Source: Lysobacteraceae bacterium PS02340 | GTDB lineage: Bacteria > Pseudomonadota > Gammaproteobacteria > Xanthomonadales > Xanthomonadaceae | Length of the DNA: 64,000 nt | NCBI GenBank assembly: GCA_029959605.1 | Contig: JASCOC010000014.1 | Coordinates: 1-64,000, forward strand | Direction of reading: 5' to 3' | In this document: piece after piece, positions 2,759 to 25,794 of the stretch | How positions within the stretch are numbered: the stretch's first letter is position 1 | How the letters are laid out: each line of letters starts with the position of its first letter | Made by a program: the position numbers and the translations under genes | Notes under the pieces: model-generated | Seen by the model: only the letters and a program-made list of their open reading frames with translations | What the model was told of the DNA's origin: nothing | Database searches by the model: none

Positions 2759-3020
2759 ACGGTTCTCGCGGCATGGGCACTCCCCATGTCGCATCGCACC
2801 GCCCCGACGGGCGGCGCACGAAGTCCGGACCTACGCGCCGGACTTCAGATGGGCGACTCGCACGGCGGTCTCGTGTGCGGGTGGTCCAGGAAGATCCGCA
2901 CGCCAGAGTAGCGCGCGGGGCAGGCGAGGGGAGTTCCCCGAAAGCTGCCGGTCCTGGACTGTCGCCGGAGCATGGGCACGCTCCCCATGCCGGGTTCACC
3001 GGCGCCTTGGCGCCGTGGGC

Positions 3021-3049
3021 TTCCTGAAACCACGAGGCCCTGCTATCAT
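3021..3049 (+). promoter_or_regulatory. Promoter of the alpha (rpsM) operon
   Basis: A sigma-70-like pair TTCCTG (3021-3026), 17-nt spacer, TATCAT (3044-3049) lies 60 nt before the rpsM ATG in a locally AT-richer stretch. It separates the alpha operon transcriptionally from the spc operon. Confidence 0.6.
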
Positions 3050-3108
3050 TTCTTGTTCCCTTTTGCCGGGATTGAACCCCTGGCAGCAAACCAGTTGGAG
3101 ATCCGCGC

Positions 3109-3465
3109 ATGGCGCGTATTGCAGGTGTGAACCTGCCTGCCCAGAAGCATGTCTGGGTTGGGCTTCAAAGCATTTTCGGCATTGGCCGTACCCGTTCGAA
3201 GAAGGTCTGCGAGGCAGCAGGCGTGACCTCGACCACCAAGATCCGCGATCTGTCCGAACCGGAAGTCGAGCGTCTGCGCTCGGAAGTCGGCAAGTATGTG
3301 GTCGAGGGCGACCTGCGTCGCGAAGTCGGCATGGCCATCAAGCGTCTGATGGACCTGTCGTGCTACCGCGGCCTGCGTCACCGTCGTGGTCTCCCGCTGC
3401 GTGGTCAGCGCACCCGGACCAATGCACGCACCCGCAAGGGTCCGCGCAAGGCCATCAGGAAGTAA
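3109..3465 (+). CDS. rpsM: 30S ribosomal protein S13
   Basis: S13 sits in the 30S head and contacts the 50S subunit and tRNA. The 118-residue product begins [16 protein letters not shown], carries the helix-two-turns-helix region (about 14-60) and ends with the basic [16 protein letters not shown] tail that reaches the decoding region. First gene of the alpha operon (rpsM-rpsK-rpsD-rpoA-rplQ), 11 nt before rpsK. Confidence 0.97.
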
Positions 3466-8354: not shown

Positions 8355-8900
8355 TCAGTCGTCGAGCACTTCCGCCGCCGCGGCTGCGGGCATTGCAGCG
8401 GCCACGGCCGCCTCATGCGACGTCAGGACACGTCCGGATTCGGTGCGCGCGTCGAGATCCAGAGCGCGCGCGTCGATGCGGGCCGCCGCCGCGGTGCACG
8501 TTGCGACATCGGCAATGCCGTCGGGGACGTACCGGTCGCGGAACGCGTGTGCTTCGTCGATGAGCATGGCGTTCCGGCCCTCGACGAATTCGCGTCGGCT
8601 TCCTGCGATGCCGTGCGCGTCCAGCAGGTCTTTCAAGCGGGTCATCCAGCGCAGCGCGAGCTGGATCACGCCGTCCCAGGCGGCGTAAGCGCGCTGCGCG
8701 TCCGTGCCACAAGGTGCAGGAAGCGCGCCGCAGGCATCGACGCGTGCGGATCGGGCAAAGGAGGCCGCGGCCAGCGTCTGGACGGCGGCGAACGTGGGTT
8801 GGATCAGGCGATCGTCCGCGCGCGCGTCCGGCGCGTTCGTGAGCGGTACAAAGCCGAGCGCCAATGCCGGGCGGCGCGTCTTCAGGCCGGAAAGCACCAT
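8355..8900 (-). CDS. Hypothetical protein, 181 aa
   Basis: Not recognised. The product starts MVLSGLKTRRPALALGF, is Ala-rich and predicted soluble, with a Trp-containing stretch AYAAWDGVIQLALRWMTRL (about 71-89) and FVEGRNAMLIDEAHAFRDR (about 103-121) that look like two amphipathic helices. Three cysteines occur in the first two thirds. Third codon positions are strongly GC-biased, supporting real coding. It is the last of a minus-strand run after typA, thpR and the DUF2127 gene, 73 nt downstream of the latter. No signal peptide or membrane segment is evident. The start codon is uncertain. Confidence 0.55.
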   Translation of the reverse strand: MVLSGLKTRRPALALGFVPLTNAPDARADDRLIQPTFAAVQTLAAASFARSARVDACGALPAPCGTDAQRAYAAWDGVIQLALRWMTRLKDLLDAHGIAGSRREFVEGRNAMLIDEAHAFRDRYVPDGIADVATCTAAAARIDARALDLDARTESGRVLTSHEAAVAAAMPAAAAAEVLDD

Positions 8901-8973
8901 GGGCAGGACACGCCACGTGCGACGGATGTCGTACGACGAGCTTTGGCGGTGACGCGCGCCTGCAACCCTCGGC

Positions 8974-9432
8974 TCAGACCGCGCCGCGCCGTCGGCGCAA
9001 GTCGCGCGCGAGCACCAGCACGATCATCAGGTTGAGCAGGAAGACACCCCAGGTCATCCAGTCCGGGTGCTGCCACAGCGCGTAGATCTCGAACGGCAGG
9101 TACGCGGCCGCGCCGATCACGCCCAGCCATGAGGCCCACGCGCGATGACCCCAGAGACCCCAGCCTTCGAACAGGCGCATCACGGCATAGATCACCGCGA
9201 CGCCGATGGCGATGTGCAGCCGTTCCGGGGTGATCGCATCGAGCATCGCGGTGCCGCTGCGTTCGGCGTCGACACCGAAGCGTGCGAGTACGTGTTCGAG
9301 CTCGTGCTGCAGCGCGTCCGGGCCGATCGCCGCGAGGGCGCCGGCGACGAGCAGGGCGAAGACGCCCTTGGCGGCCTCGAACAGCGCGATCGCGCGCAGG
9401 CCTTTGTGGGTGTCGGTGCGATCATCGGTCAT
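8974..9432 (-). CDS. DUF2127 family membrane protein
   Basis: A 152-residue inner-membrane protein of unknown function. It has the DUF2127 layout: an N-terminal GLRAIALFEAAKGVFALLVA helix, a loop containing ELEHVLARFGVD, then three hydrophobic segments with the characteristic LFEGWGLWGHRAWASWLG and AAYLPFEIYAL stretches, ending in a basic RRRR tail. The ATG at 9432 is chosen because it shares bases with the thpR stop (TGATG), a translational-coupling arrangement; the frame extends further but that part overlaps thpR. Confidence 0.8.
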   Translation of the reverse strand: MTDDRTDTHKGLRAIALFEAAKGVFALLVAGALAAIGPDALQHELEHVLARFGVDAERSGTAMLDAITPERLHIAIGVAVIYAVMRLFEGWGLWGHRAWASWLGVIGAAAYLPFEIYALWQHPDWMTWGVFLLNLMIVLVLARDLRRRRGAV

Positions 9433-10016
9433 CAGAACAGGGCGTCCTGTCGGGGTGGCGCGGGCAATGCGGCGCCGGTCAATGGCCACGCGCCGAGCGC
9501 GTCGTAGCGGCCACTGGGATTGAACAGCAATTCAAAGTTATCGACGTCTAGGCTATCGGCGCCGCAGTCCACCGCGTCGAGCCACGTCTGCGGCGGCAGT
9601 CCCCGTTCGAGGAACGCAAGCGTGACATGCGGCCGCGTGGTCCGCTCCATCGGCGCGATACCCGCGCGGCGGACCGCGTCATGGCTCGCATCGCACAGGG
9701 CCTGCAGTGCGGGGCAGGGCGCCGGCAACGCGACGACTGCGCCGGAGTGGCGCCAGTAGGCGAGGCGTTCGAGGGTGAAGCGGTGTGGCGGAATCCGGGT
9801 CGCCGCGTCTGCGAATGCATCCAGAAGCGCCGGTGCGACCACGGGGCCTGCGGTCGCACCTACGAAACAGAGCGTGACGTGCCACTGGTCGGCGCGTCGC
9901 AGTTGCAAAGAAGGCGCGTCCGATGGACGCGCCTCCTGCAAACGGTGCAACACCGTTGCGAGCACCACCCGGCCGTCGGCACTGGGCCGCCACGCCGGGA
10001 ACAGCGCCTGGCTCAC
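9432..10016 (-). CDS. thpR: RNA 2',3'-cyclic phosphodiesterase (2H family, LigT/ThpR)
   Basis: A 2H phosphoesterase that opens 2',3'-cyclic phosphates in RNA; the family was first described as 2'-5' RNA ligase. The 194-residue product has both HxTx motifs: HVTLCFVG (about residue 46) and HVTLAFLE (about residue 129). The start is GTG at 10016, overlapping the typA stop by 4 nt (GTGA), and its own stop overlaps the next start (TGATG), so typA-thpR-DUF2127 reads as a coupled operon. A more divergent relative lies at 24021-24560; both end in a WPL-x(n)-ALF tail. Confidence 0.88.
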   Translation of the reverse strand: MSQALFPAWRPSADGRVVLATVLHRLQEARPSDAPSLQLRRADQWHVTLCFVGATAGPVVAPALLDAFADAATRIPPHRFTLERLAYWRHSGAVVALPAPCPALQALCDASHDAVRRAGIAPMERTTRPHVTLAFLERGLPPQTWLDAVDCGADSLDVDNFELLFNPSGRYDALGAWPLTGAALPAPPRQDALF

Positions 10017-11842
10017 GCTGCGCGGGACGCGCGCTTGCGATCGCTCTCGGTCAGGAACTTCTTGCGCAGGCGGATTTCCTTCGGCGTGACTTCGACCAGT
10101 TCGTCGTCATCGATGAAGTCCAGCGCCTGTTCCAGCGAGAACTTGATCGCCGGCGTCAGCGCGATGGCGTCGTCCTTGCCCGAAGCACGCATGTTGGTCA
10201 GCGGCTTGGTCTTGATCGCGTTGACGGTCAGATCGTTGTCCTTGGAGTGGATACCGACCAGCTGACCCTCGTACACATTGTCGCCTTCGGCGGCGAACAG
10301 CTTGCCGCGCTCCTGCAACGGGCCGAGCGAGTAGGCCGGCGTGGCGCCCGGCGCATTGGCGATCATCACGCCGTTGAGGCGCTTGGCGATCGCACCGGTT
10401 TCCTTCGGGCCGTAACGGTCGAACACGTGGAACAGCAGACCGCCGCCCTGGGTCAGGGTCTTGAACTCGTTCTGGAAGCCGATCAGGCCACGGGCCGGGA
10501 TCTCATAGTCCAGACGCACGCGTCCCTTGCCGTCCGACTCCATGTTCTTCAGCTGGCCCTTGCGGATGCCGAGCTTCTCCATCACGCCGCCCTGGTGCTG
10601 CTCTTCGACGTCGACCACCAGCTGCTCGATCGGCTCCATCTGCTGGCCGTCGATCTCCTTGATGATGACCTCGGGGCGCGACACGGCCAGCTCGAAGCCT
10701 TCGCGGCGCATGTTCTCGATCAGCACCGACAGGTGCAGTTCGCCGCGGCCGGAGACCAGGAACTTGTCCGCGTCTTCCAGCTGCTCGACCTTCAGCGCCA
10801 CGTTGTGCACGGTCTCGCGCTCGAGGCGATCCTTCAGCTGGCGGCTAGTCAGGAACTTGCCGCCGGACAGATCCTTGTTGCCTGCGAACGGCGAGTTGTT
10901 GACCTGGAAGGTCATCGAGATCGTGGGCTCGTCGACGGTCAGTGCCGGCAGCGCTTCCGGGGTATCCAGCGCGCAGACGGTGTCGGAAATGGTCAGGTCC
11001 TGGATGCCGGAGATGGCGACGATGTCACCGGCCTCGGCGGTGTCCTGCTCGATGCGCTCCAGGCCCAGGAAGCCGAGCACCTGCATCACCTTGCCCTGGC
11101 GCTTCTTGCCTTCACGGCTGATGACCGAGACCGGCATGTTCTTCTTCAGGGTGCCGCGCTGGATGCGGCCGATGCCGATCACGCCGACGAAGTTGTTGTA
11201 GTCCAGCTGGCTGATGCGCATCTGGAAGGCGCCGTCCGGGTCGACTTCCGGCATCGGTGCGTGCTGCATGATCGCTTCGTACAGCGGGGTCATGTCGCCC
11301 GAACGCGCGGCGTCGTCGAGGCTCGCGTAGCCGTGCAGCGCCGAGGCGTAGACGATCGGGAAGTCGAGCTGCTCGTTGGTCGCGCCGAGCTTGTCGAACA
11401 GGTCGAACACCTGGTCGATCACCCAGTCCGGACGCGCGCCCGGGCGGTCGATCTTGTTGACGACGACGATCGGCTTGAAGCCCATCGCGAACGCCTTCTG
11501 GGTCACGAAGCGCGTCTGCGGCATCGGGCCGTCCATCGCGTCGACCAGGATCAGCACGGTGTCCACCATCGACAGCACGCGCTCCACCTCGCCGCCGAAG
11601 TCGGCGTGGCCCGGGGTGTCGACGATGTTGATGCGGTTGCCGTTCCAGGTGATCGCCGTGTTCTTGGCGAGGATCGTGATGCCACGTTCCTTTTCCTGGT
11701 CGTTGCTGTCCATCACGCGCTCGGCGAGCACGGTGCGCTCGGAGAGGGTGCCCGACTGCTTCAGCAGACAGTCGACGAGGGTGGTCTTGCCGTGGTCGAC
11801 GTGGGCGACGATGGCGATATTGCGCAGGCGTTCGATGGACAT
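10013..11842 (-). CDS. typA: Translational GTPase TypA/BipA
   Basis: Ribosome-associated GTPase important for 50S assembly at low temperature and for stress and virulence responses. The 609-residue product has the G1 loop [10 protein letters not shown], switch regions with [13 protein letters not shown]3 [11 protein letters not shown] and G4 NKIDRPGA, followed by EF-G-like domains and the TypA-specific C-terminal domain. The ATG at 11842 ([17 protein letters not shown]) fits the family; 13 extra codons upstream are open but not conserved. Downstream thpR is translationally coupled through a GTGA overlap. Confidence 0.97.
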
Positions 11843-15876: not shown

Positions 15877-17778
15877 ATGGGCTATGAGGAATTCCACCGC
15901 CGCTCCATCGAAGACCCCGAAGGGTTCTGGGGCGAGCAGGCGCAGGCGATCCACTGGCACAAGGCCCCGGACCGGATCCTCGACTATTCGAATCCGCCGT
16001 TCCGCAAGTGGTTCGTCGGCGGCGAGACCAACCTCTGCTTCAATGCCGTCGACCGGCATCTCGACGCGCGTGGCGACCAGCTCGCGCTCGTCGCGATCTC
16101 GACCGAAACGAACGAGACGCGCGAGATCACCTACGCGCAGCTGTACCGCGAGGTCAACGATTTCGCGGCCGTGCTGAAAGCGCTCGGCGTCGGGCGTGGC
16201 GACCGCGTCGTCATCTACATGCCGAACATGGCCGAGGCCGCGTTCGCGATGCTGGCCTGCGCGCGCATCGGCGCGGTCCACTCGGTGGTGTTCGGCGGTT
16301 TCGCCGCGCACAACCTCGCGCTGCGCATCGACGATGCGAAGCCTGCGCTGCTGATCGCCGCCGATGCGGGCAGCCGCGGCGGCAAGGTGATTCCGTACAA
16401 ACCGCTGGTCGATGCAGCCTGCGCGGAAGCGCAGTCCCCGCCGCCGCACGTGCTGATCGTCGATCGCGGCCTCGATCCCGGCTACGCGCGCGTCGAAGGG
16501 CGCGACGTCGATTACGCGACGATCCGCGCGCAGCACGCCGGCACCGATGTGCCGGTGGAGTGGCTGGAGTCCAACGAGCCCAGCTATCTGCTCTACACCT
16601 CCGGTACCACCGGCAAGCCTAAGGGCGTGCAGCGCGACGTCGGCGGTTATGCGGTCGCGATGGCACTGTCGATGTGGTCGATCTACGACATCCGCCCGGG
16701 GCAGGTGATGTTCACCACGTCCGACGTGGGCTGGGCGGTCGGCCACTCGTACAACGTCTACGGCCCGCTGATCGCAGGCGCGACGGTGATCCTTTACGAG
16801 GGTCTGCCCTTCAGTCCGGATGGCGGCATCTGGTGGAAGATCTGCGCCGACTACGGCGTGCGCACGATGTTCTCCTCGCCGACCGCGATCCGCGTGCTGA
16901 AGAAACAGGATGCGAAGTTCCTGACCCGGTACGACCTGTCGAAACTCGAATACCTGTTTCTCGCCGGCGAACCGCTCGACGAACCCACTGCGAGCTGGAT
17001 CAGCACCGGCCTCGGCGGCACCACGATCATCGACAACTACTGGCAGACCGAAACCGGCTGGCCGGTGCTGGCACTGATGCCCGGCGTCGAACTGAAGCCG
17101 GTGAAGTTCGGCTCGCCGGGCCTGCCGACGCCGGGCTACGACCTGCGCGTGATCGATGAAGCCACCGGCGAACGCGTGCCGCCCGGCACCAAGGGTGTGC
17201 TGGTGATCCAGCCGCCGCTGCCGCCGGGCTGCATGACCACGGTGTGGAACGACGACGCGCGTTTCCTGTCGAGCTATTTCTCGCATTTCAAGGAGCTGCT
17301 CTACAGCTCGCTGGACTGGGCGATCCAGGACGAAGACGGCTACACCTTCATCCTCGGCCGCACCGACGACGTCATCAACGTCGCCGGCCATCGACTCGGC
17401 ACGCGCGAGATCGAGGAATCGGTGTCGAGCCATCCGGCCGTCGCCGAGGCCGCGGTGATCGGCGTCGCCGACGAACTGAAAGGCCAGGTGCCGATCGTGT
17501 TCGTGACGCTCAAGCAGGCATCGGCGGACGCGGACGCGCAGCACGCTACCGCGGGCGAGATGATGCGCACCGTCGCCGACCAGCTCGGCGCCGTCGCGCG
17601 GCCGGCGCGGGTGTACGTCGTCAATGCGCTGCCGAAGACGCGCTCGGGGAAATTGCTGCGGCGGTCCCTGCAGGCGCTGGCGGAGTCGCGCGACCCCGGC
17701 GATCTGTCGACGCTCGACGATCCCAACGCGCTGGAGGAAGTGCGCCGCGTGCTGGCGCGCGGCGCCGACGCGGGCTGA
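15877..17778 (+). CDS. prpE: Propionyl-CoA synthetase
   Basis: Activates propionate with ATP and CoA to propionyl-CoA, the entry step of the methylcitrate pathway encoded just downstream on the other side of the divergent regulator. The 633-residue product is an AMP-forming acyl-CoA synthetase: YTSGTTGKPKGVQRDVGG (P-loop), DNYWQTETGWP (adenylate binding), a TDDVINVAGHRLGTREIEE hinge and the conserved C-terminal lysine Lys592 in PKTRSGKLLRR, the residue reversibly acylated in this family. It resembles PrpE rather than Acs, for example by YDIRPGQVMFTTSDVGWAVGHSY. It ends 4 nt from the convergent next gene. Confidence 0.93.
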   Translation: MGYEEFHRRSIEDPEGFWGEQAQAIHWHKAPDRILDYSNPPFRKWFVGGETNLCFNAVDRHLDARGDQLALVAISTETNETREITYAQLYREVNDFAAVLKALGVGRGDRVVIYMPNMAEAAFAMLACARIGAVHSVVFGGFAAHNLALRIDDAKPALLIAADAGSRGGKVIPYKPLVDAACAEAQSPPPHVLIVDRGLDPGYARVEGRDVDYATIRAQHAGTDVPVEWLESNEPSYLLYTSGTTGKPKGVQRDVGGYAVAMALSMWSIYDIRPGQVMFTTSDVGWAVGHSYNVYGPLIAGATVILYEGLPFSPDGGIWWKICADYGVRTMFSSPTAIRVLKKQDAKFLTRYDLSKLEYLFLAGEPLDEPTASWISTGLGGTTIIDNYWQTETGWPVLALMPGVELKPVKFGSPGLPTPGYDLRVIDEATGERVPPGTKGVLVIQPPLPPGCMTTVWNDDARFLSSYFSHFKELLYSSLDWAIQDEDGYTFILGRTDDVINVAGHRLGTREIEESVSSHPAVAEAAVIGVADELKGQVPIVFVTLKQASADADAQHATAGEMMRTVADQLGAVARPARVYVVNALPKTRSGKLLRRSLQALAESRDPGDLSTLDDPNALEEVRRVLARGADAG

Positions 17779-17782
17779 GCCT

Positions 17783-19000
17783 TCAGTCCGCCGGCGCGAC
17801 GCCGGTGTAGTGCGCGCGCGGGCGGATCAGCATGCCGAGCTCCTGCTGCTCCAGCGCGTGCGCCAGCCAGCCGGCGAGGCGGCCGGCCGCGAACATGCAC
17901 AGCGCAGGCGTGGCGGGCAGGCCGTGCACGAAACAGATCGCCGCCAGCATGCCGTCGATGTTGGGAAGGCGTCCGCTGGTCTCGGCCGCGGAGGTGAGCA
18001 CCGCTTCGACCTGCTGCATGCGGGCATCGTCCGCATGACGCGCGCGCAGCATCGCCAGCACTTCGGCGGCGCGCGGATCGCCTTCGGGATACAGCACGTG
18101 ATGGAAGCCGGGCAGGTCGTCGCCGCGTTGCCAGCGCTCGGCGACGAAGGCGGCAGGCGAGGGTGCATCGCAGGCCTCGCGGATCAACGCATGCGCGCGC
18201 GCGGTCGCGCCGCCATGGCGCGGACCCGACAGCGCGGCGAGTCCCGCGCAGACGGTTGCATGCAGATGCGCGCCGGTGGACGCGACCACACGCGCGGCGA
18301 AGGCCGAGACGTTGAGTTCGTGGTCCGCACACAGCACCAGCGCTGCGCGCACGAGATCGGCGAAGGCCGCGTCGCCGGGACGCCATGCATCAGCGAGCAG
18401 TACGTGGACGGGGCGCGCATCCGGCGTGCCGGCGACCAGCAACGCCGCGTTCTGGCGCAGCAATGTGGCCGCGACGCCGCGCTTGGCCGCCGGCGCGGCG
18501 CTCAACGAATGTCGAAGATCCGGAGCGAGCAGCGGGATCGCGGCCATCGCACGTTCGATCGGCGGCAGGGTGGCATCGCCGGCGATCGCGGCGACGCGCG
18601 CGGGCCAGTCGCCGGTCGCGGCGTCGAAGGGATCGGCATCGCCGCAATCCCACAACAGCCGCGCGGTGTCTTCGAGCGTGGCGCCGCTGCGGACCATCGC
18701 GACTGCGGAACGTCCGCGGTAATACGGACTGTCGGGTCGGATCAGCGAGATCCGCGTTTCCATGACCGGCAGGCCGCGGTCGAGGCTCTGCGCCGCCCCG
18801 CGCGCCGCGCCACGGCCTGCGCGCTTGCGCTGGGTCAGGCGCTCGACGTCCTGGCGCAGGTACACGCGGCTGCGATGGTCGGCGCCGGGGCGCGATTCCA
18901 ATAGGCCGCGGCTGACGTAGGCGTAGAGCGTCGCGGTACTGATGCCGAGCGCCGCGCAGGCTTCGGCGGCGGACATCAGGTCGCCATCGTTCGCATTCAC
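17783..19000 (-). CDS. Helix-turn-helix/citrate synthase fusion, candidate regulator of the prp cluster
   Basis: A 405-residue two-domain protein. Residues about 10-55 form a MerR/excisionase-type helix-turn-helix (SAAEACAALGISTATLYAYV, ending in YLRQDVERL). Residues about 80-405 are a citrate synthase fold aligning with PrpC of this window: YYRGRSAVAMV against [26 protein letters not shown] against [15 protein letters not shown], and an IRPRAHYTG C-terminus. The catalytic triad equivalents are present: His262 (GPRHGG), His301 (GFHHVLY) and Asp349 (PNIDG). It is divergent from prpB and convergent with prpE, with palindromes in the shared promoter. Start uncertain: GTG 19000 chosen; TTG 19033 and ATG 18976 are alternatives. 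That it regulates prp genes is inference. Confidence 0.88.
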   Translation of the reverse strand: MNANDGDLMSAAEACAALGISTATLYAYVSRGLLESRPGADHRSRVYLRQDVERLTQRKRAGRGAARGAAQSLDRGLPVMETRISLIRPDSPYYRGRSAVAMVRSGATLEDTARLLWDCGDADPFDAATGDWPARVAAIAGDATLPPIERAMAAIPLLAPDLRHSLSAAPAAKRGVAATLLRQNAALLVAGTPDARPVHVLLADAWRPGDAAFADLVRAALVLCADHELNVSAFAARVVASTGAHLHATVCAGLAALSGPRHGGATARAHALIREACDAPSPAAFVAERWQRGDDLPGFHHVLYPEGDPRAAEVLAMLRARHADDARMQQVEAVLTSAAETSGRLPNIDGMLAAICFVHGLPATPALCMFAAGRLAGWLAHALEQQELGMLIRPRAHYTGVAPAD

Positions 19001-19016
19001 AGTGAATCCCGATGTA

Positions 19017-19043
19017 TTGATTGATTCGATCAAGATTGATCAA
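19017..19043. promoter_or_regulatory. Tandem TTGAT/ATCAA operator between the HTH-citrate synthase gene and prpB
   Basis: The divergent promoter region contains TTGA (19017), the perfect inverted repeat TTGATTCGATCAA (19021-19033) and the perfect palindrome TTGATCAA (19036-19043), giving regularly repeated TTGA half-sites. It stands out as AT-rich against its surroundings. TTGATC (19037-19042) could also be a -35 element with CAGATT at 19059-19064. Its placement suits control of both divergent genes. Confidence 0.6.
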
Positions 19044-19104
19044 CCATTCGGATGGTGCCAGATTGCACGCCATCGCGGTACACCGCAGCTCCGGAGTCGC
19101 ACCC

Positions 19105-19989
19105 ATGACCACGCTTTCCGCAGGCGCGAAATTCCGCGCCGCGCTCGCCGCCGAATCGCCGCTGCAGGTGATCGGCGCGATCAACGCCAACCACGCACTG
19201 CTGGCCAAGCGCGCCGGCTTCCAGGCGATCTATCTGTCGGGTGGCGGCGTCGCCGCGGGCTCGCTGGGTCTGCCGGATCTGGGCATCAACACGCTCGAAG
19301 ACGTGCTGATCGACGTGCGCCGCATCACCGACGTCTGCGATCTGCCGCTGCTGGTCGACATCGACACCGGCTTCGGCGCGAGCGCGTTCAACATCGAGCG
19401 CACTGTGAAGTCATTGATCAAGGCCGGCGCGGCGGCGTGCCATATCGAAGACCAGGTCGGCGCCAAGCGCTGCGGCCATCGTCCGGGCAAGGAGATCGTG
19501 TCGCAGGGCGAGATGGTCGACCGGGTCAAGGCCGCGGCCGATGCGAAGACCGATCCCGATTTCTTCCTGATCGCGCGCACCGATGCGATCCAGGTCGACG
19601 GCGTCGACGCCGCGATCGAACGCGCCATCGCCTGCGTCGAAGCAGGCGCCGACGGCATCTTCGCCGAGGCCGCCTACGACCTCGACACCTATCGCCGCTT
19701 CGTCGATGCCGTGAAGGTGCCGGTGCTGGCCAACATCACCGAGTTCGGCGCCACGCCGCTGTTCACGCGCGACGAACTGGCGTCTGCGGGCGTCGCGATC
19801 CAGCTGTTCCCGCTGTCGGCGTTCCGCGCGGCGAACAAAGCCGCCGAAGCGGTGTACACCGCGGTGCGTCGCGACGGTTCGCAGCAGGCCGTCGTCGGCA
19901 CGATGCAGACCCGCGAGGAACTCTACGAGCGCATCGGCTATCACGCGTTCGAGCAGCGCTTGGACGCGCTGTTCGCGTCCAACAAGTAG
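19105..19989 (+). CDS. prpB: 2-Methylisocitrate lyase
   Basis: Cleaves 2-methylisocitrate to pyruvate and succinate, the last step of the methylcitrate cycle. The 294-residue product is a PEP mutase/isocitrate lyase superfamily TIM barrel with [17 protein letters not shown], the metal-binding DIDTGFG and the catalytic loop [13 protein letters not shown] containing the lyase cysteine. The start ATG 19105 follows GGAG; an open frame extends upstream into the operator but is not conserved. First gene of the prp operon. Confidence 0.95.
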
Positions 19990-20090: not shown

Positions 20091-20185
20091 CACCACCCGG
20101 CCGCGCTCGCGACGGACCTTGAGCAGCTTCCAAGCAACTCCCGATCTTTCCATCCGTGCCCGCGGGCATCCAACGGAGATTCCAG

Positions 20186-21346
20186 ATGAGCGACACCGCC
20201 ACCACCGCCCCCGGCTTCAAGCCGAAGAAGTCCGTCGCGCTCAGCGGCACGGCAGCCGGCAACACCGCGCTGTGCACCGTCGGCCGCAGCGGCAACGATC
20301 TGCACTATCGCGGTTACGACATTCTCGATCTCGCGCGCACCAGCGAGTTCGAGGAAATCGCCTATCTGCTGGTCCACGGCAAGTTGCCGACCGAAGCGGA
20401 ACTGCGCGGCTACAAGGCCAAGCTGAAGTCGCTGCGCGGCATTCCGGCGGCGGTAAAGTCGGCGCTCGAGGAGCTGCCGCCGTCGGCGCATCCGATGGAC
20501 GTCATGCGCACCGGCGTGTCGGTGCTCGGCTGCGTGCAGCCGGAGAAGGACGACCACAACCATCCGGGTGCGCGCGACATCGCCGACAAGCTGATGGCGT
20601 CGCTCGGTTCGATGCTGCTGTACTGGTATCACTGGAGCCACAACGGTCGCGCGATCGATGTCGAGACCGACGACGATTCGATCGGCGGGCACTTCCTGCA
20701 TCTGCTGCACGGCCACGAACCGCGCGAGTCCTGGGTCAAGGCGATGCACACCTCGCTGATCCTGTACGCGGAACACGAGTTCAACGCATCGACGTTCGCC
20801 TGTCGCGTCATCGCCGGCACCGGCAGCGACATGCACAGCGCCGTCACCGGCGGCATCGGCGCGCTGCGCGGCCCGAAGCACGGCGGCGCGAACGAAGTCG
20901 CCTTCGAAGTGCAGAAGCGTTACGACACGCCCGACGAAGCGGAAGCCGACATCAAGGCGCGCGTGGAGAAGAAGGAAGTGATCATCGGCTTCGGCCACCC
21001 GGTCTACACCGTCAGCGATCCTCGCAACGAAGTGATCAAGCAGGTCGCCAAGGAGCTGTCGGACGAAGTAGGCAGCCGCAAGATGTACGACATCGCCGAG
21101 CGCCTGGAAACGGTGATGTGGGACATCAAGAAGATGTTCCCGAACCTCGACTGGTTCAGTGCGGTGAGCTACCACATGATGGGCGTGCCGACCGCGATGT
21201 TCACCCCGCTGTTCGTCATCGCACGCACCGCCGGCTGGAGCGCGCACGTCATCGAGCAGCGCATCGACGGCAAGATCATCCGTCCGAGCGCGCACTACAC
21301 CGGCCCCGAGGACCAGGCGTTCGTGCCGATCGCCGAGCGCACATAA
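20186..21346 (+). CDS. prpC: 2-Methylcitrate synthase
   Basis: Condenses propionyl-CoA with oxaloacetate to 2-methylcitrate. The 386-residue product has all citrate synthase active-site motifs: GPKHGGANE (His), GFGHPVYT (His) and PNLDWFSA (Asp), plus IRPSAHYTG at the C-terminus. The short N-terminus without the zinc-type domain of E. coli GltA, and the neighbours, favour the methylcitrate enzyme. ATG 20186 follows GGAGA. Homologous over its length to the second domain of the divergent helix-turn-helix protein. Confidence 0.94.
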
Positions 21347-21419: not shown

Positions 21420-24017
21420 ATGAACAGCCAGCACCGCAAACCCCTTCCCGGCACGCAACTCGACTGGTTCGACGCGCGTGCGGCCGTCGAAGCCCTCGCG
21501 CCCGGCGCGTACGACAGCATGTCCTACACCGCACGCGTGCACGCCGAGAATCTGGTGCGGCGCTGCGAACCGGCGCAGCTCGACGATGCGCTGCGCCAGC
21601 TGATCGAACTGCGGCAGGACATCGACTTCCCGTGGTATCCGGCGCGCGTGGTCTGCCACGACATCCTTGGACAGACCGCGCTGGTCGATCTGGCCGGTCT
21701 GCGCGATGCGATTGCCGACCAGGGCGGTGATCCCGCGAAGGTCAATCCGGTCGTGCCGGTGCAGCTGATCGTCGACCACTCGCTGGCGGTGGAGTGCGGT
21801 GGCTACGATCCGGATGCGTTCGCGAAGAACCGCACGATCGAAGACCGTCGCAACGCCGACCGCTTCCACTTCATCGACTGGACCAAACTCGCGTTCCACA
21901 ACGTCGAGGTGATTCCGCCGGGCAACGGGATCATGCACCAGATCAATCTGGAGAAGATGTCGCCGGTGGTCTACGTCCAGGACGGCGTCGCGTTTCCCGA
22001 TACGTGCGTCGGCACCGACAGCCACACGCCGCACGTCGATGCACTGGGCGTGATCGCGATCGGCGTCGGCGGACTCGAAGCCGAGAACGTCATGCTCGGC
22101 CGCGCGTCGTGGATGCGCACGCCGGAGATCGTCGGCGTCGAACTGGCAGGCCGTCCCGGTCCCGGCATCACCGCGACAGATGTCGTGCTGGCGCTGACCG
22201 AATTCCTGCGCAAGTCGAAGGTGGTCGGCGCGTATCTGGAATTCCGTGGTCCCGGCGCGGCTGCACTGTCGGTCGGCGACCGCGCGACGATCTCCAACAT
22301 GGCGCCTGAGTACGGCGCGACCGCCGCGATGTTCTTCATCGACGACAACACCCTCGACTATCTGCGCCTGACCGGCCGCGAGGACACGCAGGTCGCGTTG
22401 GTCGAAACCTATGCCAAGGCCGCCGGCCTGTGGGCGGATTCGCTGGCCGGCGCCGAGTATGTGCGCACGCTGCACTTCGACCTGTCGAGCGTGGTCCGCA
22501 ACATGGCCGGCCCGTCGAACCCGCACAAGCGTGTGGCGACCAGCGATCTCGCCGCCAGCGGCATCGCCGGCGCATGGGAGATGCCGCTTGAGGGCACGAT
22601 GCCCGACGGCGCGGTGATCATCGCCGCGATCACCAGCTGCACGAACACCTCGAACCCGCGCAACGTCATCGCCGCCGCGCTGCTGGCCCGCAACGCGAAC
22701 GCGCGCGGCCTCACGCGCAAGCCGTGGGTCAAGAGTTCGCTCGCGCCGGGCTCCAAGGCCGTGCAGCTGTATCTCGAAGAAAGCGGTCTGCTGCCGGATC
22801 TCGAGCAGCTCGGCTTCGGCATCGTCGCGTTCGCCTGCACCACCTGCAATGGCATGAGCGGCGCGCTGGATCCCGCGATCCAGCAGGAGATCATCGACCG
22901 CGATCTGTACGCGACCGCCGTGCTCAGCGGCAACCGCAACTTCGACGGCCGTATCCATCCCTACGCCAAGCAGGCCTTCCTCGCGTCGCCACCGCTGGTG
23001 ATCGCCTATGCAATCGCCGGCACCGTGCGCTTCGACATCGAGAAGGACGTGCTCGGCATCGACCACGACGGCAACGCGGTCACGCTCAAGGATCTCTGGC
23101 CGTCGGATGAAGAAATCGACGCCGTGGTCAAGGCCAGTGTCAAGCCGGAACAGTTCCGCGCCGTCTACGGCCCGATGTTCAAGTTGCACGTCGACACCGG
23201 CGAGCGCGTCGCGCCGCTGTACGACTGGCGCGAGATGAGCACCTACATCCGCCGTCCGCCGTACTGGGAAGGTGCGCTGGCCGGCGCGCGTACGCTCACC
23301 GGCATGCGCCCGCTCGCGGTGCTCGGCGACAACATCACCACCGATCACCTGTCGCCGTCGAACGCGATCATGGCCGACAGCGCGGCCGGCGAATACCTTG
23401 CGAAAATGGGCGTGCCGGAAGAGGACTTCAATTCCTACGCGACCCACCGCGGCGATCATCTGACCGCGCAGCGCGCCACGTTCGCCAATCCGAAGCTCGT
23501 CAACGAGATGGCGATCGTCGACGGCACCGTGCGGCAGGGCTCGCTGGCGCGCATCGAACCGGAAGGCCAGGTCGTGCGCATGTGGGAAGCGATCGAGACC
23601 TACATGGACCGCAAGCAGCCGCTGGTGATCATCGCCGGCGCCGACTACGGCCAGGGCAGCTCGCGCGACTGGGCGGCTAAGGGCGTGCGTCTGGCGGGCG
23701 TGGAGGCGATCGTTGCCGAAGGCTTCGAGCGTATCCACCGCACTAACCTGATCGGTATGGGCGTGCTGCCGCTGGAATTCCAGCCCGGCGTCACGCGTCT
23801 GACGCTCGGCATCGACGGCACCGAAACCTTCGACGTCACCGGCGACCGCACCCCGCGCGCAATGCTCACGCTGGTGATCCACCGCCATGACGGCACGCAG
23901 CTGTCGGTGCCGGTGATCTGCCGCCTCGATACCGCGGAAGAAGTCTCGATCTACGAAGCCGGTGGCGTGCTGCAGCGGTTTGCGCAGGATTTTCTGGAGT
24001 CTTCGAAGGCGGCCTGA
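21420..24017 (+). CDS. acnD: Fe/S-dependent 2-methylcitrate dehydratase AcnD
   Basis: Dehydrates 2-methylcitrate to 2-methyl-trans-aconitate; it works with the isomerase PrpF and replaces PrpD, which is absent here. The 865-residue product is an aconitase-family protein with the [4Fe-4S] ligands in ITSCTNTSNP (first Cys) and ACTTCNGMSG (two Cys), TDSHTPH near residue 195, and the swivelling C-terminal domain with YGQGSSRDWAAKG. ATG 21420 is preferred over an earlier in-frame start at 21405. Pairing with prpF downstream is the usual diagnostic of AcnD rather than AcnA. Confidence 0.92.
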   Translation: MNSQHRKPLPGTQLDWFDARAAVEALAPGAYDSMSYTARVHAENLVRRCEPAQLDDALRQLIELRQDIDFPWYPARVVCHDILGQTALVDLAGLRDAIADQGGDPAKVNPVVPVQLIVDHSLAVECGGYDPDAFAKNRTIEDRRNADRFHFIDWTKLAFHNVEVIPPGNGIMHQINLEKMSPVVYVQDGVAFPDTCVGTDSHTPHVDALGVIAIGVGGLEAENVMLGRASWMRTPEIVGVELAGRPGPGITATDVVLALTEFLRKSKVVGAYLEFRGPGAAALSVGDRATISNMAPEYGATAAMFFIDDNTLDYLRLTGREDTQVALVETYAKAAGLWADSLAGAEYVRTLHFDLSSVVRNMAGPSNPHKRVATSDLAASGIAGAWEMPLEGTMPDGAVIIAAITSCTNTSNPRNVIAAALLARNANARGLTRKPWVKSSLAPGSKAVQLYLEESGLLPDLEQLGFGIVAFACTTCNGMSGALDPAIQQEIIDRDLYATAVLSGNRNFDGRIHPYAKQAFLASPPLVIAYAIAGTVRFDIEKDVLGIDHDGNAVTLKDLWPSDEEIDAVVKASVKPEQFRAVYGPMFKLHVDTGERVAPLYDWREMSTYIRRPPYWEGALAGARTLTGMRPLAVLGDNITTDHLSPSNAIMADSAAGEYLAKMGVPEEDFNSYATHRGDHLTAQRATFANPKLVNEMAIVDGTVRQGSLARIEPEGQVVRMWEAIETYMDRKQPLVIIAGADYGQGSSRDWAAKGVRLAGVEAIVAEGFERIHRTNLIGMGVLPLEFQPGVTRLTLGIDGTETFDVTGDRTPRAMLTLVIHRHDGTQLSVPVICRLDTAEEVSIYEAGGVLQRFAQDFLESSKAA

Positions 24018-24020
24018 CAG

Positions 24021-24560
24021 ATGCGTGGACTGATACTGATGCTGCGTCCTCCTGTCGACGTCGGCGACGAGATCATCCTGTGCGTGCACAAGGAGGCACT
24101 TGCCGACCGGATGAGCGGAAAATTCGTGACGCGGGCGCGCCTGCACCAGTCGGTGTCACTGAAGTTCGAGGATACGGAAGCGAACCTCGCAGCGCTGCGG
24201 CGCGTGGGAAACAGGCTCAGCGCGCATGCGTTCGAGTTCGTCTACAACAGGATCAGGAATGGTGGTGACGGCGGGCATTGGGTTCTCTTGCCGCGAGGCG
24301 GGGTGCCGCAGTTCCAGGAAGTGCGCGATCTCGTCCAGGCTGAATTGCGTTGCGAAGGACTGGATGTCGTAGGTCACACCGCGCATATGACGCTTGCTTA
24401 CGGCGTCGGTGCTTCACCAACGGAAAGCTTCGAGATCGAGCCGATTGTCTGGCCGGTCACCGAGATCGAACTTGTCCGTGCTGGTGCGCAAGCGGAGTAC
24501 GGCTACGACACGTTGTACCGCTGGCCACTCAAGTCTCCGAGACAAACCGCACTCTTCTGA
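24021..24560 (+). CDS. 2H phosphoesterase (LigT-like) inserted in the prp operon
   Basis: A 179-residue 2H phosphoesterase-like protein. Two motifs are visible: HQSVSLKF (about residue 42, a HxS variant) and HMTLAYG (about residue 121, HxT). Activity on RNA or nucleotide 2',3'-cyclic or 2'-5' bonds is known for the superfamily, but the substrate here is unknown. It begins 3 nt after the acnD stop and ends 37 nt before prpF, so it is co-transcribed. Its codon use is clearly less GC-rich than its neighbours (CTT, GGA, AGG, AGA, GGT), suggesting later acquisition. It shares a WPL-x(n)-ALF tail with thpR at 9432-10016. Confidence 0.82.
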   Translation: MRGLILMLRPPVDVGDEIILCVHKEALADRMSGKFVTRARLHQSVSLKFEDTEANLAALRRVGNRLSAHAFEFVYNRIRNGGDGGHWVLLPRGGVPQFQEVRDLVQAELRCEGLDVVGHTAHMTLAYGVGASPTESFEIEPIVWPVTEIELVRAGAQAEYGYDTLYRWPLKSPRQTALF

Positions 24561-24597: not shown

Positions 24598-25794
24598 ATG
24601 GCCTACATCCCCCAACTCCGCATCCCCGCCACCTACATGCGGGGTGGCACGTCGAAAGGCGTGTTCTTCCGCCTCGAAGACCTGCCTGCGGGCGCACAAG
24701 TGCCCGGTCCTGCGCGCGATGCATTGCTGATGCGCGTCATTGGTTCGCCCGATCCCTATGCCAAGCACACCGACGGCATGGGCGGCGCGACCTCGTCGAC
24801 CAGCAAGTGCGTGATCATCGGGCCTGCGTCGGTGCCGGATCACGATGTCGACTATCTCTACGGACAGGTGTCGATCGACACCGCGTTCGTCGACTGGAGT
24901 GGCAACTGCGGCAACCTCAGCACCGCCGTCGGTCCGTTCGCGATCGCCAACGGCTTCGTCGATCCGGTGCGCATTCCGCGCGACGGCACCGTCGCGGTGC
25001 GCGTCTGGCAGGCGAACATCGGCAAGACCATCATCGTGCACGTGCCGGTGGCGGACGGGCAGGTGCAGGAGACCGGTGATTTCGAACTCGACGGCGTGAC
25101 GTTCCCGGCCGCGGAGATCGTGCTGGAGTTCGTCGATCCCGCCGACGAAGGCGAGGGCGACGGCGGCGGTGCGATGTTCCCCACCGGCCATCTCGTCGAC
25201 GATCTCGACGTGCCGGGCGTCGGCATGCTCCGCGCGACGTTTATCAATGCCGGCATTCCGACGATCTTCGTCGACGCCGCCTCGATCGGATACACCGGCA
25301 CCGAGCTGCAGGACGCGATCAACGGCGACGCGAAAGCGCTCGCGATGTTCGAGACGATCCGCGCGCACGGCGCGGTGCGCATGGGCCTGATCGGCGATGT
25401 GACCGAGGCGCCGAAGCGCCAGCACACGCCCAAGGTCGCGTTCGTCGCGCCGCCGCGCGATCACGTGGTGTCGAGCGGCAAGGCGATCGCGGCCGGCGAT
25501 ATCGATCTGCTGGTGCGCGCGCTGTCGATGGGCAAGCTGCATCACGCGATGATGGGCACGGCTGCGGTCGCGATCGGCACGGCGGCCGCGATTCCCGGCA
25601 CGCTGGTGAATCTGGCCGCGGGCGGCGGCGCGCGCACGTCGGTGCGCTTCGGGCATCCCTCGGGCACCCTGCGTGTCGGCGCGGAGGCGGTCGAGGTCGA
25701 CGGCCAGTGGACCGTCGCCAAGGCGATCATGTCGCGTTCGGCACGCGTGCTGATGGAGGGTGCGATCCGCGTGCCCGGCGACACCCTGGGCTGA
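24598..25794 (+). CDS. prpF: 2-Methylaconitate cis-trans isomerase PrpF
   Basis: Isomerises 2-methyl-trans-aconitate to the cis form so that an aconitase can hydrate it; always coupled to AcnD. The 398-residue product begins MAYIPQLRIPATYMRGGTSKG, with the family motifs MRGGTSKGVFF, GGATSSTSKCVII (containing the conserved Lys/Cys) and DWSGNCGNLS in the first half. It has the diaminopimelate-epimerase-like double fold. The ATG at 24598 matches the family start; upstream open frame is not conserved. Last gene of the prp operon. Confidence 0.93.
   Translation: MAYIPQLRIPATYMRGGTSKGVFFRLEDLPAGAQVPGPARDALLMRVIGSPDPYAKHTDGMGGATSSTSKCVIIGPASVPDHDVDYLYGQVSIDTAFVDWSGNCGNLSTAVGPFAIANGFVDPVRIPRDGTVAVRVWQANIGKTIIVHVPVADGQVQETGDFELDGVTFPAAEIVLEFVDPADEGEGDGGGAMFPTGHLVDDLDVPGVGMLRATFINAGIPTIFVDAASIGYTGTELQDAINGDAKALAMFETIRAHGAVRMGLIGDVTEAPKRQHTPKVAFVAPPRDHVVSSGKAIAAGDIDLLVRALSMGKLHHAMMGTAAVAIGTAAAIPGTLVNLAAGGGARTSVRFGHPSGTLRVGAEAVEVDGQWTVAKAIMSRSARVLMEGAIRVPGDTLG

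Follow-up and report, generated by a model that had tools for sequence, protein, structure and literature searches.

The window, i.e. the whole stretch of 64,000 nucleotides that was analysed, encodes a protein in which an N-terminal helix-turn-helix (HTH) domain is joined to a citrate synthase (CS) domain. This protein, here called HTH-CS, is likely a one-component regulator that binds a site at 19016-19043, controls its own gene as well as prpBC-acnD-prpF, and replaces PrpR. The part of this reading that makes HTH-CS a regulator is, taken by itself, very likely correct. Sequence comparison established the architecture, the single clade formed by these proteins, an operator, a genomic slot common with PrpR, and the loss of catalytic residues in some members.

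The HTH-CS gene and its product

The reading frame of the HTH-CS gene is real and complete. GTG at 19000 appears a more likely start than TTG at 19033, because a stop codon separates the TTG from the later start in two close relatives (G023 and G034) and because the conserved DNA site described below includes the TTG. The initial annotation had given a span of 17783 to 19043; the gene itself stands, but that end does not, since the coding sequence covers 17783-19000 and an end at 19043 takes in the operator. The gene and its domains are as follows.

17783-19000, minus strand: HTH-CS gene, 405 amino acids, GTG start at 19000 (open reading frame, Pfam and alignment; start from relatives)
18824-18979, minus strand: HTH_17/MerR-type DNA-binding domain, residues 8-59 in GTG numbering (Pfam; AlphaFold helices and strands)
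17816-18778, minus strand: citrate synthase domain, Citrate_synt, model positions 3-357 of 357 (Pfam; Foldseek best matches)
18215-18217, minus strand: His262, catalytic-type histidine (alignment)
18098-18100, minus strand: His301, catalytic-type histidine (alignment)
17954-17956, minus strand: Asp349, catalytic-type aspartate (alignment)

Pfam assigned the N-terminus to HTH_17 (31.7 bits, cut-off 27) and to MerR_1 (23.1 bits, cut-off 21.6), while the narrower MerR model PF00376 gave 20.8 bits, under its cut-off of 28.2. Citrate_synt (PF00285) matched residues 75-395 over positions 3-357 of 357 with 191.9 bits (cut-off 27). With three models above cut-off in one protein, the proposed joining of a MerR/excisionase-type HTH to a complete citrate synthase fold is confirmed. 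The reported conservation of His262, His301 and Asp349 (the triad) agrees with our alignment, in which they match the catalytic residues of E. coli GltA and PrpC. Scores with the NCBIfam synthase families were far under all cut-offs, the best being 142 bits against 332 (NF009005). The window genome has two further Citrate_synt matches, namely prpC and a gene on another contig which is taken for gltA. The nearest named relatives of HTH-CS, among the best 80 of 582, are from Luteimonas and show 97-98% protein identity.

The AlphaFold model (mean pLDDT 85.7, with a poor stretch at 62-79) is a winged HTH plus a citrate synthase fold. Helices are predicted at 11-18, 22-30 and 49-62, and strands at 36-38 and 45-48. 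The model has no MerR-type coiled-coil dimer helix behind the HTH; helix 49-62 is followed by the low-confidence stretch 62-79 and then by the citrate synthase fold. The best Foldseek matches were methylcitrate and citrate synthases (3hwk, 1a59, 8giw and 6s87), with TM scores by query of 0.63-0.68 and an rmsd of 8.5-9.4, a deviation which indicates that the domain positions in the model differ from those in the matched synthases.

The prp locus

HTH-CS sits between prpE, with which it is convergent, and prpB-prpC-acnD-prpF, from which it is divergent. All five prp locus genes scored above the NCBIfam cut-offs.

15877-17778, plus strand: prpE, propionate-CoA ligase, convergent with HTH-CS (NCBIfam TIGR02316)
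19105-19989, plus strand: prpB, methylisocitrate lyase, divergent from HTH-CS, presumed target (NCBIfam NF008455, TIGR02317)
20183-21346, plus strand: prpC, 2-methylcitrate synthase, presumed target (NCBIfam NF009006)
21426-24017, plus strand: acnD, 2-methylisocitrate dehydratase (NCBIfam TIGR02333)
24601-25794, plus strand: prpF, 2-methylaconitate isomerase (NCBIfam TIGR02334)

The match of prpB to TIGR02317 bears out the earlier statement that HTH-CS is divergent from prpB, the place where PrpR sits in enteric bacteria. A small gene between acnD and prpF (24021-24560, plus strand) has a sub-threshold match to the 2'-5' RNA ligase superfamily (PF13563; 20.6 bits against a cut-off of 27) and is an odd passenger in a propionate operon.

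A candidate operator that accompanies the HTH-CS gene

The region between HTH-CS and prpB contains TTGAT/ATCAA repeats (19017-19043), which the initial annotation regarded as the regulator's site. When upstream regions were aligned by the HTH-CS gene, a strongly kept TTGATCAATCTTGATC, then ATCAA, was found just before the start. This defines the following feature.

19016-19043, minus strand: conserved candidate operator TTGATCAATCTTGATCGAATCAATCAAT, with the core TCAATCTTGAT-N7-ATCAAT at 19016-19039, between HTH-CS and prpB (sequence comparison)

The core, with 17 fixed bases, served as the search pattern, and a site counted as lying at the HTH-CS start when it fell between 150 bp upstream and 30 bp downstream of the start of the match. 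The named loci are the best 80 of 582 relatives, partly from the same assemblies as the 61-genome set introduced below, and 79 of them have upstream sequence. The operator was found at the HTH-CS start in 79 of these 79 loci from the best 80 of 582, without mismatch in 49, with one mismatch in 29 and with two in one. No second place at up to 3 mismatches occurs in the 1,014,791 bases of the same loci, both strands included, and the reversed pattern gave no match in them. Comparison thus lends strong support to the view that the palindromes are the regulator's site. In the window genome, the left 16 bases of the operator have a single exact occurrence; 12 other places lie within 3 mismatches, all of them with 3, and one overlaps the operator itself. 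Consensus promoters were sought across 17700-19200, and none of the sigma-70 type was seen at the operator.

The operator is retained where the neighbour of HTH-CS is acnD (L061, L162 and L165), where it is a second citrate synthase (12 of 12 named loci, L185-L196, among the best 80 of 582, and 19 of 19 loci of a phylum sample), and where it is a CoA-transferase (4 of 4; L201, L202, L206 and L211). It thus follows HTH-CS through changes of the target, as expected of HTH-CS's own binding site. In 11 examined genomes without HTH-CS there was no operator within 3 mismatches, though prpB and prpC are present in all 11; at 4 mismatches, a single place turned up in each of four of these genomes, and it is not near prpB. 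We rejected the possibility that the operator is a feature of prpB, since it is retained at HTH-CS genes that have other neighbours, and since the search of these 11 prpB-containing genomes did not reveal it.

In the phylum sample, 30 of 40 loci have the operator at the HTH-CS start with up to 3 mismatches. L200 carries it with a 6-base spacer and no mismatch, and L203 lacks it at its own HTH-CS start and carries two sites, with 2 mismatches each, at 2.7-2.9 kb upstream. Counting these two, an operator lies near HTH-CS or at the operon head in 32 of 40 loci; it was not found there in the other eight (L204 and L224-L230). Elsewhere in the 495,539 bases of these loci three weak places with 3 mismatches were seen, two overlapping the L199 and L219 sites on the other strand and one, in L211, 5.6 kb away.

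Two individual loci deserve a description. In L203 the two operator copies (2996-3190) are about 170 bases apart and precede the first of what are likely three genes of one operon, HTH-CS being the last, so control would cover the whole operon. In L062 (genome G053, 8744-11130) the same operator precedes an HTH-CS gene divergent from a different citrate synthase. Here HTH-CS is split over two frames and the divergent citrate synthase was found as a C-terminal part in one open frame, with an intact operator between them; the pair is maybe decaying, or the assembly is in error.

Distribution and gene neighbourhoods

The relatives set consists of 61 genomes, the window's own and 60 relatives. HTH-CS is whole in 29 of them and in two pieces in one (G053), and 31 match only over ordinary citrate synthases. 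Wider regions were compared around the split locus, around all intact loci but the window's own (28), and in 11 of the 31 genomes without HTH-CS (10 of the same genus and 1 of the same order). HTH-CS is divergent from prpB in 27 of the 28 intact loci and from acnD-prpF in one (L061). The named loci (best 80 of 582) comprise 68 outside the Alphaproteobacteria and 12 that are alphaproteobacterial by name. Among the former, 67 have upstream sequence, and the divergent gene is prpB in 65, with a gap of ca. 1.2 kb in L174 and L176, and acnD in 2; in the 12 alphaproteobacterial loci (L185-L196) it is another citrate synthase, called CS2.

With a model of the N-terminal 120 residues, matches were obtained in 5 of 369 genomes sampled from the class and in 53 of 398 sampled from the phylum; both figures include the window's own genome. 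From the phylum sample, 40 loci were taken of the 54 places listed. The neighbour is CS2 in 19 of these 40 and prpB in 4. A divergent family-III CoA-transferase is found in the four loci mentioned above, and in L226 and L227 HTH-CS is divergent from a MipA gene, behind which lies a CitMHS citrate:proton symporter gene. Single cases are a methyltransferase (L210), a 2-hydroxyacid dehydrogenase (L215) and a cation efflux gene (L225). In L203 HTH-CS lies behind a D-galactonate-type transporter, and in L200 the nearest sizeable divergent open reading frame encodes a thiamine-pyrophosphate enzyme; the neighbour assignment leaves out L204, L219, L224 and L228-L230. Homologues also occur on plasmids, with a CoA-transferase neighbour in Azospirillum sp. 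B510 and with a citrate synthase neighbour on pAtC58 and a Chelatococcus plasmid. Among the plasmid matches listed, 19 of 25 are annotated as 'citrate synthase family protein'.

Consistent divergence from prp genes, put forward as a check in the initial annotation, therefore holds for the near relatives and fails outside the Lysobacterales, where the neighbours are mostly not prp genes and the divergent gene is usually another citrate synthase. The initial annotation had considered contexts unrelated to prp as evidence against its proposal. Since the operator travels with the gene in most of these contexts, though not beside the citrate symporter, they widen the HTH-CS family rather than refute the regulatory role. 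The triad-less HTH-CS genes of L226 and L227 have a common upstream sequence unlike the canonical operator, perhaps representing a second DNA specificity within the family. On a contig labelled Candidatus Eremiobacteraeota (L170), an HTH-CS gene (59% identity) is accompanied by prpB, prpC and the operator, which points to either transfer between phyla or a binning error.

HTH-CS and PrpR occupy the same slot in different genomes

PrpR had been reported absent from the window. This extends to the whole genome, as PrpR_N (PF06506) was found in none of the 61 genomes of the relatives set, the window's own included, with a positive E. coli control. Among 198 genomes of the family, 44 have HTH-CS, 22 have PrpR_N, none has both and 132 have neither. 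Such a lack of overlap would have a chance probability of 0.003 if the genomes were independent, which they are not, and it is partly due to shared descent. One genus (g22) holds both regulators, with HTH-CS in one genome and PrpR in seven. In 8 of 8 PrpR loci checked (of 22), PrpR is divergent from prpB, which is the slot of HTH-CS in the window. The HTH-CS operator is absent from these eight loci (best place, 6 mismatches), and the palindrome described for X. citri PrpR was matched in them only with 3-5 mismatches of 14. Judged by sequence, the relation of HTH-CS to PrpR looks like a non-orthologous replacement of the regulator at one site.

According to the excerpt of PMC12153269 considered here, X. 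citri PrpR represses prpB through the site GTTGCAA-N2-TTGCAAC and enteric PrpR is an activator that works with 2-methylcitrate. All analysed Xanthomonadales are said to use a Fis-family PrpR for propionate, as stated in an excerpt of PMC9765439. At least in the form found in that excerpt, this statement would need to be qualified, given HTH-CS in 44 of 198 family genomes and PrpR_N in none of those 44. In the 11 relatives without HTH-CS (L063-L073), no regulator was recognised among the ten open reading frames scanned. Pfam identified an mdh-like gene upstream of prp in L065 and L068 and an aminotransferase gene in L066, and tblastn found prpE in L063, L064, L069, L070 and L072, and a piece of it in L071.

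Active site residues and phylogeny

For analysis of the active site, 120 HTH-CS proteins were aligned, of which 80 are named (best of 582; one partial) and 40 are from the phylum sample, with some repeats. In this alignment, which is less sure for the most divergent rows, the triad is complete in 110 of 120 proteins, including that of the window, and at least one triad residue is lost in 10 (L200, L204, L205 and L224-L230), while R310, R393 and R395 are kept in all 120 and R374 in 119. The window protein has R310, R374 and R393, which we take to be equivalent, by alignment to E. coli GltA and PrpC, to the oxaloacetate-binding arginines R314, R387 and R407 of GltA. Triad-less members keep the HTH.

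The proteins of L226 and L227, with the citrate symporter as neighbour, are among the triad-losers, as are all eight phylum-sample loci without the canonical operator. The triad is kept in 30 of the 32 operator-bearing loci of that sample, the exceptions being L200 and L205. Because operator and triad tend to go together, loss of catalysis is seen mainly in branches with another DNA specificity, and a complete triad may be important in the main group, either to bind the ligand or for activity. Our reading is that the pocket has probably been maintained because it binds a tricarboxylate, and that some members can do without catalysis; the HTH-CS of the window, with its intact triad, may still be an active enzyme.

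A tree of 33 HTH-CS, 11 CS2 and 7 GltA/PrpC domains placed HTH-CS on one side of a branch (support 100/99) against the 18 enzymes; as the root is a midpoint root, the direction of this split is unproven. The triad-losers appear at about three places inside HTH-CS, where some forks are weakly supported and L200 is on a long branch. Position 305 is Pro in 96% of triad-intact HTH-CS proteins and Arg, Lys or Thr in the 34 enzymes aligned (31 of them CS2), and positions 199, 206, 218, 307 and 352 differ as well. PrpC-type enzymes have Thr at 305, so this position alone does not rule out the use of an acyl-CoA. All 31 CS2 sequences aligned have Glu at the catalytic Asp of GltA and PrpC, and M. tuberculosis CitA has the same Glu in the alignment.

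Proposed mechanism and alternatives

The mechanism that we infer, with respect to operator binding, ligand, oligomer and sign of regulation, is the following. HTH-CS would have arisen, most likely once, from a citrate-synthase-type enzyme that gained an N-terminal MerR-like HTH. As a citrate-synthase-type dimer or higher oligomer, it would bind the TTGAT/ATCAA operator at 19016-19043 and control its own gene and prpBC-acnD-prpF, taking the place of the sigma54-type PrpR in this lineage. The signal would occupy the former catalytic pocket, DNA binding would change as the citrate synthase fold closes or opens, and the ligand would relieve repression. That a metabolite is sensed is suggested by the conserved arginines and by the nature of the target genes. 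Among the candidate signals we rank 2-methylcitrate, the first committed product, highest, with oxaloacetate, or both with propionyl-CoA, as further candidates; we give this choice about an even chance and base it on the presumed targets, namely prp genes in the window and citrate synthases or a citrate symporter at other loci. Repression lifted by the ligand is moderately favoured over activation because the operator abuts HTH-CS's own start.

Activation would mean that liganded HTH-CS recruits RNA polymerase to prpB from the operator, as enteric PrpR does by another route. MerR-type HTHs often activate. The operator, however, lies directly beside the HTH-CS start, which we regard as a usual place for self-repression, and of the two PrpR precedents in the excerpt of PMC12153269 the enteric one, activating with 2-methylcitrate, speaks for activation, whereas that of X. 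citri, a different protein in the same role, represses prpB. We therefore consider activation possible but unlikely. Somewhat more doubtful is a bifunctional trigger enzyme, i.e. an active 2-methylcitrate or citrate synthase that is also a DNA-binding regulator and is released from DNA by turnover or substrate binding. The intact triad and arginines of the window protein, the complete triad of most homologues and of most operator-bearing phylum-sample loci, and the likeness of the predicted fold to methylcitrate synthases are consistent with it; the differences from the aligned enzymes at Pro305 and the five other positions and the existence of triad-less members argue against it, as does prpC, whose presence in the same operon makes a second synthase unnecessary at this locus.

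A plain second synthase, whose HTH-like extension has another role such as oligomer formation and next to which the DNA site belongs to another regulator, was kept as an alternative in the initial annotation and would fit the annotation of homologues as enzymes, for example on the plasmids. It has become highly improbable and was set aside: in many families and beside a variety of targets the operator accompanies HTH-CS, and the search of 11 genomes lacking HTH-CS did not find it; the gene is in PrpR's slot but was never seen together with PrpR_N in the family genomes compared; and the HTH is retained in members that have lost catalytic residues. The same evidence, namely operator, slot and the absence of overlap with PrpR_N in 198 genomes, gives strong comparative support to the original proposal that HTH-CS is a regulator at prp.

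Relation to known systems and implications

HTH-CS has the slot of PrpR from E. coli, Salmonella and X. citri, divergent from prpB, and presumably the same targets, but PrpR is an unrelated sigma54/Fis-type protein, and its PrpR_N domain was not found in the window genome. The site of X. citri PrpR given in the excerpt of PMC12153269 is also unlike the TCAATCTTGAT-N7-ATCAAT core. With GltA, PrpC and M. tuberculosis CitA, HTH-CS has in common the fold, the catalytic triad and the presumed carboxylate-binding arginines; it differs in the extra N-terminal HTH, the separate clade, the NCBIfam scores under cut-off and Pro305. The winged HTH is like that of MerR/excisionase-type regulators (above two Pfam cut-offs), whereas the coiled-coil dimer helix is missing from the predicted structure and a citrate synthase domain is present instead. 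Enzyme-derived one-component regulators are exemplified by BzdR/BoxR (shikimate-kinase-like, responding to benzoyl-CoA) and MocR/PdxR (aminotransferase-like). In these proteins, as proposed for HTH-CS, an HTH on an enzyme fold reads a pathway metabolite, but the enzyme fold, the HTH and the pathway are different ones.

In Caulobacter, CitB and CitC (CCNA_03757/03758) are two citrate synthase paralogues with successive locus tags, and an E. coli gltA deletion was rescued by CitB and not by CitC, according to an excerpt of PMC7083601. CitC may be the HTH-CS member of a CS2/HTH-CS pair, and its failure to rescue, as reported in that excerpt, would be expected in that case. No description of an HTH-citrate synthase regulator was found among the literature matches listed. 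In our best reading, HTH-CS would represent an undescribed transcription factor family which reads a tricarboxylate through its old active site.

If this is correct, many genes annotated as 'citrate synthase family protein' would turn out to encode transcription factors that read metabolites and for which an operator and targets are predicted, on a scale indicated by the N-terminal matches in 53 of 398 sampled phylum genomes. An enzyme fold of central metabolism would have been recruited for gene control, and some branches have lost catalytic residues. A wider proposal, which is speculative and rather improbable, is that HTH-CS proteins are tricarboxylate sensors throughout the proteobacteria and that those with an intact triad are still enzymes whose catalytic cycle switches DNA binding. 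If it holds, a general sensor would respond to 2-methylcitrate at prp and to citrate-like ligands beside citrate synthases and the citrate symporter, and through a sensor that is still an enzyme the cell would read the flux of a reaction, not the level of one metabolite.
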